64,000 nt of DNA from Streptacidiphilus pinicola (GCF_003258295.1 NZ_QKYN01000118.1:1-64000); one strand, 5' to 3'; shown: positions 13,673-24,718, counted from the first letter of the stretch. The notes: generated from the letters alone by a model not told the origin. Numbers and translations: made by a program.

Positions 13673-14440
13673 ATGAACGCACGCATGAAGGCGAAGCAGG
13701 CAGACTCCGCAGCAGCGACCGCCCCCCTCTCCGTCTGGGAGCGGATGGCCCAGCCCACTCCCGCGCCACGCCCCGGGCTCACGCTCGGCCGGATCGCCGA
13801 AGTGGCACTGGGGATCGCGGACGCCGACGGCCTCGCCGCCGTCTCCATGCGGCGGCTTGCGGAGGGGCTCGGCGTCTCGGCCATGACCTGCTACCGCTAC
13901 GTCACCGGCAAGGACGAGATCATCGAGCTGATGCTCGACGACGTCCGACGGGAGATGCTCCTCGACGACCTCCCCGGGGACTGGCGGGGTGTCCTGCGCG
14001 CGTCGGCCCTGCGGTTCCGCGAGGTCGTGCTGCGGCATCCCTGGATGACGGACGTCCCCGGCCGGATCCTCTTCGCGCCGACGCCGGCCTATCTGGCGTT
14101 GTCCGAGCAGCTGTTCGCCGCACTCCACCGCCTGGGTCTGGACCTGGACCGGATCGCCGACGTCACGGGCGCCGTCACCGCCTACGCGCGGGCCGGGACG
14201 CACGACGAGATCACCCGTACCCGGCTGCGCACCCCCGAGGGATGGAGCAGCAGCCAGGACGCCAGGGATGCCAACCGCGAACGCCTGATCCGCCTGCTGG
14301 ACAACGGCGACTACCCCGTCTACCGGAAGTTCGTCCGCGAGGGAGCGCCTCAGGGCGACGAGCGGGCCCGGTTCGAGTTCGGCCTCGACTGCCTGCTCGA
14401 CGGCATCTCCGCCAGGCCGGACATCCCGGCCGCCGGCTGA
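13673..14440 (+). CDS. TetR/AcrR-family transcriptional regulator
   Basis: 255 residues; ATG at 13673 with GAGG upstream. After a ~35-residue lead, the HTH is clear: LTLGRIAEVALGIADADGL, AVSMRRLAEGLGVSAMTCYRYV and TGKDEIIELMLD. The C-terminal two thirds resemble the tetracycline-repressor-type ligand domain (helices with RHPWMTDVP and a HDEITRTRLRT stretch). Divergent from the DHA2 pump with a shared operator. Its last 91 bases overlap, antisense, the 3' end of the phosphopantetheinyl transferase gene. Confidence 0.9.
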   Translation: MNARMKAKQADSAAATAPLSVWERMAQPTPAPRPGLTLGRIAEVALGIADADGLAAVSMRRLAEGLGVSAMTCYRYVTGKDEIIELMLDDVRREMLLDDLPGDWRGVLRASALRFREVVLRHPWMTDVPGRILFAPTPAYLALSEQLFAALHRLGLDLDRIADVTGAVTAYARAGTHDEITRTRLRTPEGWSSSQDARDANRERLIRLLDNGDYPVYRKFVREGAPQGDERARFEFGLDCLLDGISARPDIPAAG

Positions 14441-15120
14441 CCGGCCGGCAGCGCGGCCCCCACGGGCTCGAGGGCGATCGCCGTGAGCACGATCCCCTCG
14501 TGGACGAGCCACCGTCCCTCGAGCATCGCGGGGCGCCCCAGCACGGCGCTCGCGTCCGCCGGGAGCAGGTGCGCACGGAACGTCCCGCCGTCCGGATCGA
14601 TGGCGATCGAGGCCTCGTCGAAGCCGAGCCAGCTGCCGGTGACGGGGAACCAGGTCTTGTACACGGCCTCCTTCGCGCTGAAGAGCAGTCGGTCCCAGTG
14701 GATGTCGGGCCTCCGGGCGGTCAGGGCGTCCAGCCTCGCGCCCTCCTCCGGGCGGGCTATGACGTCCAACTCCCGGCCGGGCAACGGTGCGTGGGGTTCT
14801 GCATCGATGCCGAGCCCGTCCAGGTCGCCCGCCCGCGCCACGACCGCGGCGCGGTAGCCCTCGCAGTGCGTCATCGAGCCGACGACACCGGTCGGCCAGG
14901 CGGGCGCACCCAGCCGGCCGGGCAGGATGGGCGCCGCGGGGACCCCCAGGCCCGCCAGGGCCTCCCGGGCACAGGCCCGGACCGTGGCGAAGTCCCTGCG
15001 GCGGCGGTTCGAGGCGCGCGCGATCACGGCCTCCTCCTCGGGGAAGAGCCTCGGGGTCTCCACCGGGTCGGCGTACGCCTCGGCGCACCTGACCCGGTCC
15101 GGCAACAGCGCTTCGATCAC
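14350..15120 (-). CDS. 4'-phosphopantetheinyl transferase (EntD/Sfp superfamily)
   Basis: 256 residues starting with a GTG that overlaps the metallophosphoesterase stop (GTGA). The enzyme transfers phosphopantetheine from CoA to a carrier-protein serine. Motifs: LPGRLGAPAWPTGVVGSMTHCEGY in parts, LGIDAEPHAPLP (metal-binding Asp/Glu) and WDRLLFSAKEAVYKTWFP (catalytic Glu/Lys). EntD-like size plus a ~35-residue tail (PAGQPAAGMSGLAEM...) that lies over the TetR gene end. As last gene of the ten-gene operon it would activate the carrier domain coded by the first gene, though it could also serve other synthases. Confidence 0.9.
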   Translation of the reverse strand: MIEALLPDRVRCAEAYADPVETPRLFPEEEAVIARASNRRRRDFATVRACAREALAGLGVPAAPILPGRLGAPAWPTGVVGSMTHCEGYRAAVVARAGDLDGLGIDAEPHAPLPGRELDVIARPEEGARLDALTARRPDIHWDRLLFSAKEAVYKTWFPVTGSWLGFDEASIAIDPDGGTFRAHLLPADASAVLGRPAMLEGRWLVHEGIVLTAIALEPVGAALPAGQPAAGMSGLAEMPSSRQSRPNSNRARSSP

Positions 15121-22966: not shown

Positions 22967-22969
22967 CAC

Positions 22970-24718
22970 TCACTCCTTGCCCGACGCACACGCGGCGAGC
23001 GCCTCGATGGTCGGGTTCTCGACCACGTCACGGGGGGAAATCTCCAGCCCGGCCTCCTGGGCCTGCTGGATGAAGGCGATCGCGAGGATGCTCGTGCCGC
23101 CGAGTTCGAAGAAGTTGCTCTCGGCGCTGATCCGCTCGGCCGGGAAGAGCTCCCTGAAGATCTCGCAGAGCGCCTTCTCCGCGGGGGTGCTCGGCTCCCG
23201 GCCATTCGGCTGCTCGGCCACGGAAGGGGCGGGGAGGCCCTTCCGGTCGACCTTGCCGTTGGGGGTGAGCGGAAGGGCGTCCAGGGTCGCGTAGACCGAC
23301 GGGACCATGAAGTCGGGCAGGTAGCGCATCGTGTGCTCGCGCAGTTCACCGGGCGACGGCCGGCCGCCGTCCGCGGGCACCACGTAGGCCACCAGCTGCG
23401 GCGTCTCGCCGTGGTCGGCGCGCACCGCGGCGACCGCGTGGGCCACGCCCGGATGGCGGCCGAGTGCCGCCTCCACCTCGCCCAGCTCGATCCGGAAGCC
23501 GCGCAGCTTGACCTGGTCGTCGCCGCGACCGTGGAACAGGATGCTGCCGTCGGCCCGCCACGAGGCCAGGTCGCCGGTCCGGAACATCCGGCCGCCCGCG
23601 CCCGCGAACGGGTCGGCGACGAAACGCTCCGCGGTGAGAGCGGGCTGCCCCAGGTAGCCGCGGGCCAGCCCGTCCCCGCCGATGTACAGGTCACCGACCT
23701 CGCCGACGGGCACCGGACGGAGCTCGCCGTCCAGGATGTGCACCGAGACGCCGGGGATCGGACGGCCGATGGACACGTCCTCGCCCGGCTGGAGCGGGTC
23801 GGTCATCGTGGCGCACACCGTCGCCTCGGTGGGGCCGTAGGCGTTGATCAGCCGCAACCCCGCACCCCAACGGTCCACCAGCGCCGGCGGACAGGCCTCG
23901 CCCGCGACGACCAACGTGCGCAGCTCGGGGAAGTCCTCCGGCGCGACCGTGGCCACCGCCGCGGGAGGGAGCACCGCATGGGTGATCCGGTGCTCCCGCA
24001 GCGTGGTCCGGAGGTTGTCGCCGGCCAGGGTTCCCGCGGACGGCACCACCAGGGTGGCCCCGGCGGTGAAGGCGGCCAGCAGCTCCGTCAGGAAGGCGTC
24101 GAAGCTTGGGGAGGCGAACTGCAGCACCCGGCTGTCCGCGTCGACCCGCATGGCATCGACCTTGGCCGCGGCCAGTCCCGCCAGTCCGGCGTGGGTGACC
24201 GCCACGCCCTTGGGCCGTCCGGTCGAGCCGGAGGTGTAGATGACGTAGGCGAGGTCGGACGCGGACCGGGGGCCGGTGAGCTCCTCGTCCGACAGGCTCG
24301 TACCGGGCAACGCACCGAGGACGGCGATCTGCTTGGCGGAGTCCAGGGCCACGTGCGGGACCGTCAGGTCCGCCGGCAGCTTCGCGGCGGCGACCCGCGT
24401 CGTGCACAACAGCACAGGCGCCGCGTCCTTCAGGAGGTAGGAGAGGCGCTCGGCCGGGTAGTCGACGTCGACCGGCAGGAAGGCGGCACCGGTCTTGGCG
24501 ACGGCCAGCAGGCTGACCACCATGCGGCTGGACCGGGGCAGCGCCAGCGCGACCAGACGCTCCGGGCCGGCACCCTGAGCGACCAGCATGCGCGCGAGCC
24601 GGTTCGCCTGCTCGTCCACCTCCGCATACGAGAGGGACTCCCCCTCGGCCTGGATGGCGATGTTCCCGGAGGATCTCCGCACCGCCCGGTCCCACAATTC
24701 ACATATCATTTCCGGCAC
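22970..24718 (-). CDS. Freestanding NRPS adenylation-carrier (A-T) didomain
   Basis: 582 residues starting at a GTG after GAGGGG. The adenylation domain (1-500) shows A3 YTSGSTGRPKG (161-171), A5 NAYGPTEATVC (292-302), A7 RTGDLASW, A8 RGDDQVKLRGFRIELGEVE in parts and A10 NGKVDRK with Lys489. The carrier domain (510-582) has FELGGTS with Ser543 for phosphopantetheine. Specificity residues read by hand against GrsA-PheA: D207 A208 T211 V249 V270 A272 A293 V301 C302 K489 (DATVVAAVCK), close to Phe/Tyr codes, so an aromatic amino acid is likely. No condensation, epimerase or thioesterase domain. First gene of the ten-gene operon. Confidence 0.93.
   Translation of the reverse strand: MPEMICELWDRAVRRSSGNIAIQAEGESLSYAEVDEQANRLARMLVAQGAGPERLVALALPRSSRMVVSLLAVAKTGAAFLPVDVDYPAERLSYLLKDAAPVLLCTTRVAAAKLPADLTVPHVALDSAKQIAVLGALPGTSLSDEELTGPRSASDLAYVIYTSGSTGRPKGVAVTHAGLAGLAAAKVDAMRVDADSRVLQFASPSFDAFLTELLAAFTAGATLVVPSAGTLAGDNLRTTLREHRITHAVLPPAAVATVAPEDFPELRTLVVAGEACPPALVDRWGAGLRLINAYGPTEATVCATMTDPLQPGEDVSIGRPIPGVSVHILDGELRPVPVGEVGDLYIGGDGLARGYLGQPALTAERFVADPFAGAGGRMFRTGDLASWRADGSILFHGRGDDQVKLRGFRIELGEVEAALGRHPGVAHAVAAVRADHGETPQLVAYVVPADGGRPSPGELREHTMRYLPDFMVPSVYATLDALPLTPNGKVDRKGLPAPSVAEQPNGREPSTPAEKALCEIFRELFPAERISAESNFFELGGTSILAIAFIQQAQEAGLEISPRDVVENPTIEALAACASGKE

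Follow-up and report, generated by a model that had tools for sequence, protein, structure and literature searches.

Gene content and organization of the locus

The analysed window, a stretch of 64,000 nucleotides of the Streptacidiphilus pinicola genome, carries on its minus strand between positions 14350 and 24718 ten open reading frames with the domains that had been named in a first-pass annotation. Their near-continuous coupling, as claimed there, is borne out at the junctions: the A-T and P450 genes are separated by 0 bases (3 if the P450 starts at its ATG) and the P450 and MbtH genes by a gap of 45 bases, followed by overlaps of 4 bases at each of MbtH/SDR1, SDR1/SDR2 and SDR2/ligase, of 20 bases at ligase/PLP enzyme, of 1 base at PLP enzyme/oxidase and of 4 bases at both oxidase/metallophosphoesterase and metallophosphoesterase/PPTase. 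The coding-frame GC3 is high in most of the ten frames, and as the same gene order is kept in other species, the arrangement is not due to chance. The real unit is wider than this block and includes the divergent TetR and MFS genes, since both accompany the cluster in its relatives. The features are:

22970..24718, minus strand: A-T didomain (Pfam AMP-binding and PP-binding), CabH/NovH-type, for loading of an aromatic amino acid, predicted to be tyrosine
21743..22969, minus strand: cytochrome P450, by sequence family a CabI/NovI-type beta-hydroxylase of a carrier-bound amino acid
21503..21697, minus strand: MbtH-like A-domain partner (PF03621, 75 bits), in the same place in relatives
20721..21506, minus strand: active SDR (SDR1), NovJ-type, with Ser/Tyr/Lys kept, predicted to convert beta-OH to beta-keto on the carrier
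19957..20724, minus strand: degenerate SDR (SDR2), NovK-type partner of the active SDR, with Tyr and Lys of YxxxK lost
18359..19960, minus strand: ANL-family amide synthetase, NovL/SimL/CabL-type by identity to relatives, predicted to join acyl acid and aminocoumarin amine
17122..18378, minus strand: fold-type II PLP enzyme (PALP) with an N-terminal Cys4 zinc-ribbon-like segment, candidate for the C-C bond-forming step of the pyrrole diacid
15971..17122, minus strand: FAD-dependent glycine/D-amino-acid-oxidase-like enzyme (DAO domain), candidate ring-aromatising oxidase
15117..15974, minus strand: PptH-like phosphopantetheinyl hydrolase (metallophosphoesterase; PDB relative 6unc)
14350..15120, minus strand: PptT-like phosphopantetheinyl transferase (4PPT_N and ACPS), which could activate the A-T carrier domain
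13673..14440, plus strand: TetR regulator, CabR/SimR-type (best PDB match SimR)
13618-13630 and 13639-13651, no strand: two imperfect palindromic operator candidates, conserved, between the TetR and MFS genes
12152..13615, minus strand: MFS exporter (MFS_1), divergent from the TetR gene, likely a self-resistance pump

Conservation of the cluster in a cacibiocin producer

In Catenulispora acidiphila DSM 44928, the stretch from the A-T didomain to the FAD oxidase is conserved gene for gene in order and orientation, with identities of 64, 77, 50, 68, 40, 63, 69 and 64% respectively, together with a TetR and MFS pair (63-65%) that encloses the same two-operator intergenic region. C. acidiphila is the producer of cacibiocin (Zettler et al., 2014, cited in PMC11448209), and the equation of this region with the cab cluster (MIBiG BGC0001154) rests on gene content and organism. 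The pathway had been annotated as undescribed and as matching none that could be named, a view contradicted by the collinear occurrence of these eight genes in the cacibiocin producer. A MIBiG entry with all ten genes had been proposed as the observation to speak against it; BGC0001154 essentially provides this for eight of the ten, with the similarity taken from Table 3 of a 2020 survey, where an aminocoumarin cluster of S. pinicola KCTC 49008 appears as 64% similar to cacibiocin (PMC7601586). The coupled genes of the earlier claim thus stand, and its novelty falls.

A search with the P450 alignment retrieved Streptomyces sp. CoH27, in which the genes from A-T to metallophosphoesterase follow in the same order (72, 86, 54, 75, 46, 72, 80, 73 and 65% identity), succeeded by TetR (71%) and MFS (73%) genes, while the PPTase is missing from the place it holds in the S. 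pinicola operon. A third genome possesses the same eight genes, in a draft assembly that interrupts those for A-T and P450. We regard the S. pinicola locus with high confidence as a cacibiocin-type aminocoumarin cluster without a halogenase.

The aminocoumarin cassette

The nine A-domain specificity residues, read by alignment to GrsA (1amu), are DATVVAAVC and identical in all five homologues, those of the cacibiocin and simocyclinone producers included. With its MbtH partner, the protein has the predicted features of the stand-alone A-T enzyme of tyrosine-type specificity that belongs to an aminocoumarin cassette; it shares 64-72% identity with the C. acidiphila and CoH27 copies and 61% with those of the simocyclinone strains. 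The P450, 77% identical to the C. acidiphila, 86% to the CoH27 and 68% to the simocyclinone-strain proteins, has as its best solved relative 4l0e (442.9 bits), which we take to be the skyllamycin P450 hydroxylating carrier-bound amino acids, and its sequence family points to a carrier-specific beta-hydroxylase as the cassette has it. As most of 17 further P450 relatives are located in loci without an SDR pair, the P450 alone is not diagnostic of the pathway.

SDR1 keeps the catalytic Ser/Tyr/Lys and is 68-75% identical to the cacibiocin-type and 61% to the simocyclinone copies. SDR2, with 37-46% identity to its relatives, has lost the Tyr and Lys of the YxxxK motif in S. pinicola and three homologues, i.e. 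in all four clusters compared, so that the label 'degenerate SDR', given next to a partner that retains both residues, proves correct. Such a pair fits the division of labour between NovJ and NovK, as judged from their published description and not from their sequences (PMC12284476). The amide synthetase is 63-72% identical to the cacibiocin-type copies and 41% to the simocyclinone copy. Its nearest PDB structures are 6sq8 and 6h1b, presumably the amide synthetase McbA, and the protein can be assigned as a putative NovL/SimL-type enzyme of the cassette; NovL, CouL, CloL and SimL are amide synthetases of the same kind (PMC10804368). This aminocoumarin-type cassette supports the proposal of a pathway whose starting point is an aromatic amino acid bound to a carrier and oxidised at the beta position. 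The two SDRs and the ligase had been overlooked as NovJ/K- and NovL/SimL-type members of the cassette.

The A-T, P450, MbtH, two SDR and amide synthetase genes are the only ones found in common between the cacibiocin and simocyclinone types. Ring hydroxylation and closure, not elucidated for novobiocin according to a 2025 paper (PMC12284476), would therefore be performed by one of these six proteins, by an enzyme encoded elsewhere or non-enzymatically.

Parts of this gene set are also seen elsewhere. The S. pinicola genome encodes another member of this P450 family (51%; G000:C22, 28192-29370) near NRPS A-domain matches. In Actinacidiphila yanglinensis (L037/L052), A-T (56%), P450 (70%) and a 40% amide-synthetase-like ligase are part of a larger NRPS locus with neither PLP enzyme nor oxidase nearby. 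An 11.8 kb contig (L060, genome G132), on which an NRPS (A-T), MbtH and P450 (54%) adjoin a 40% amide-synthetase-like ligase, was rejected as a related cluster, as the SDR pair was not found and the NRPS is longer.

Candidate enzymes for the pyrrole half

As is characteristic of cacibiocin-type clusters, the amide synthetase is followed by the PLP enzyme, 69-81% identical among these clusters, and directly thereafter by the FAD oxidase (63-73%). The PLP lysine K127 and the four cysteines of the Cys4 motif are invariant in the family. Among characterised PLP enzymes, threonine and cysteate synthases come closest, though with low similarity, and neither curated cut-off is reached (157 of 303 bits for threonine synthase, 142 of 325 for cysteate synthase). 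A search of genome contigs with the PLP enzyme alone gave no match, and an order-wide search recovered homologues of 72% identity in three genomes of another family, C. acidiphila among them. At E<=1e-60, the PLP enzyme is absent from both simocyclinone strains, neither of which is among the five matches.

Both genes are present in the cacibiocin-type clusters examined, and the simocyclinone strains lack the PLP enzyme, which makes the two enzymes candidates for the acyl half; it is this partition between the two cluster types that singles them out. From gene content, we infer that the PLP enzyme and the oxidase probably make the pyrrole half, even though relatives of the PLP enzyme also found without an aminocoumarin cassette count against this assignment. 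How they might do so can be outlined only tentatively, and the following two-enzyme route from primary metabolites is a rather doubtful one: a PLP-bound aminoacrylate derived from serine or O-phosphoserine would react with a three-carbon nucleophile of the enolpyruvate type to 2-amino-5-oxoadipate, which would close to a pyrroline dicarboxylate to be aromatised by the oxidase to pyrrole-2,5-dicarboxylate. If true, such a route would be unlike the proline-derived route to pyrroles.

An acyl half of another kind, with the two enzymes building a different heteroaromatic or imino acid and the product being a new analogue instead of cacibiocin A, is an unlikely alternative, as 64-69% identity to the C. 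acidiphila copies leaves room for a changed specificity and as the S. pinicola cluster lacks the halogenase and has gained the PptH/PptT-like pair. The key residues and long blocks of the PLP enzyme are, however, invariant in five cacibiocin-type copies, and the degree of identity of the amide synthetase to its cacibiocin-type counterparts speaks in the same direction. Far less probable is a role of the pair in the amino acid half, where it might, for instance, hydroxylate or close the coumarin ring: aminocoumarins still lack an assigned closure enzyme (PMC12284476), and the cluster encodes an FAD oxidase, but the simocyclinone strains make their aminocoumarin with no PLP-enzyme homologue detectable at the above threshold, and a similar PLP enzyme/oxidase pair also occurs apart from the cassette.

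Such a pair is seen in genome G176 (L012, 8177-10551), where a PLP enzyme (58%) is followed by a DAO-family oxidase (28%) with an adjoining transposase-like open reading frame and no aminocoumarin cassette nearby; possibly, the pyrrole pair exists here on its own. More distant PLP-enzyme homologues (43-46%) reside in three NRPS loci (L013, L014 and L015) with ABC exporter genes. Formation of a coumermycin-type pyrrole from threonine was set aside for the PLP enzyme, as the methylated pyrrole differs and a search of the open literature yielded no description of those genes.

Predicted carrier-protein priming, regulation and export

The last two genes of the operon had not been recognised as a PptH/PptT-type pair. 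The only PDB relative of the metallophosphoesterase is 6unc (E 6e-92), which we take to be Mycobacterium tuberculosis PptH, and it adjoins a PPTase for which PptT and Npt are the closest NCBIfam models, with a score below both cut-offs. PptH removes phosphopantetheine and thereby opposes PptT, the two having the consecutive locus tags Rv2795c and Rv2794c (PMC8557913). The PPTase is 62-64% identical to the copy in the simocyclinone strains; the gene pair recurs in two genus members and, away from the cluster, in CoH27, and a further PPTase of the S. pinicola genome stands without such a partner. The most fitting reading of the pair is the priming and unpriming of carrier proteins, as opposed to pathway chemistry.

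The best PDB match of the TetR protein is SimR (2y2z, E 7e-26). In the cacibiocin-type clusters, TetR is 63-71% and the MFS protein, encoded in the same place, 64-73% identical, such that a divergent TetR/MFS pair of SimR/SimX design is, as expected of these clusters, also present in S. pinicola. The intergenic region of 57 bases (13616-13672) contains two imperfect palindromes conserved in five clusters, and the operator pattern, derived from these same sites, has 11 matches in the window versus 2.35 expected. This candidate double operator matches the two-operator design published for SimR/SimX (PMC5812520), and the regulators of cacibiocin biosynthesis include the repressor CabR, which is released by aminocoumarins (PMC5133688). 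The double-operator layout is common to the clusters of Streptomycetaceae and Catenulispora, which suggests that the two groups share a TetR binding code.

Gyrase-based self-resistance of the novobiocin type was rejected, as a third gyrB-like gene was not found in the S. pinicola genome, whose two GyrB-family genes are as few as in any genus member tested. The lack of an extra gyrB does not exclude an aminocoumarin product, because self-protection in the case of simocyclinone is conferred by an exporter instead (PMC5812520).

Predicted product and pathway

The cab halogenase has no match at E<=1e-20 in the S. pinicola genome, nor is one found in CoH27. Cacibiocin is a DNA-gyrase antibiotic, of which the dichlorinated form B alone needs an FAD halogenase, and cacibiocin A is said, in the abstract of the 2014 cacibiocin paper, to be the aminocoumarin amide of pyrrole-2,5-dicarboxylic acid. 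With the halogenase absent, the predicted product is unchlorinated, either cacibiocin A or one of its close analogues.

We would deduce the chemistry of every step from which genes are present and how they are ordered, from the specificity residues, the state of the catalytic sites and sequence conservation, all of which were observed. With MbtH, the A-T protein would load its carrier domain with tyrosine, whose beta carbon would then be hydroxylated by the P450; the SDR pair, one subunit active and one structural, would generate beta-keto-tyrosine, from which ring hydroxylation and lactone closure would lead to 3-amino-4,7-dihydroxycoumarin. The acyl half, an acid of the pyrrole-2,5-dicarboxylate type, would be supplied alongside by the PLP enzyme and FAD oxidase; the amide synthetase would then couple the aminocoumarin and acyl halves, and the product would be exported by the TetR-regulated MFS pump. 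That the pathway is undescribed and yields a beta-oxidised amino acid derivative other than an aminocoumarin, as the first-pass annotation had it, is hardly credible in view of the collinearity with the cacibiocin producer and the six genes common to the simocyclinone strains.

Comparison with known aminocoumarin systems

The NovH-NovI-NovJ/K-NovL series of novobiocin follows the same enzyme logic, likened here by published descriptions and not by sequences (PMC12284476, PMC10804368). Streptomyces sp. NRRL B-24484, a published simocyclinone producer (PMC5812520), has A-T, P450, MbtH, SDR1, SDR2 and ligase genes beside a metallophosphoesterase/PPTase pair, and the same six genes with this pair are found in Kitasatospora sp. 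DSM 101779. In contrast to the S. pinicola cluster, no FAD oxidase is adjacent in these simocyclinone strains, polyketide-type and sugar genes lie nearby, and the A-T protein has an extra N-terminal stretch that appears condensation-like by eye.

From the C. acidiphila region, the S. pinicola cluster differs in several respects. The former has a Trp-halogenase-family gene, of which the S. pinicola genome is devoid, and, by eye, a LuxR-type gene, none of which is seen beside the S. pinicola cluster; conversely, the S. pinicola operon includes PptH/PptT-like genes, and the PptH homologue of C. acidiphila is located far away at 3.76 Mb. Flagged in an earlier survey, the S. pinicola cluster is ordinary as a discovery; its value is comparative and it helps to assign the enzymes that form the pyrrole. 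Together with that of CoH27, it represents a natural non-halogenated version that defines a reduced cacibiocin gene set.
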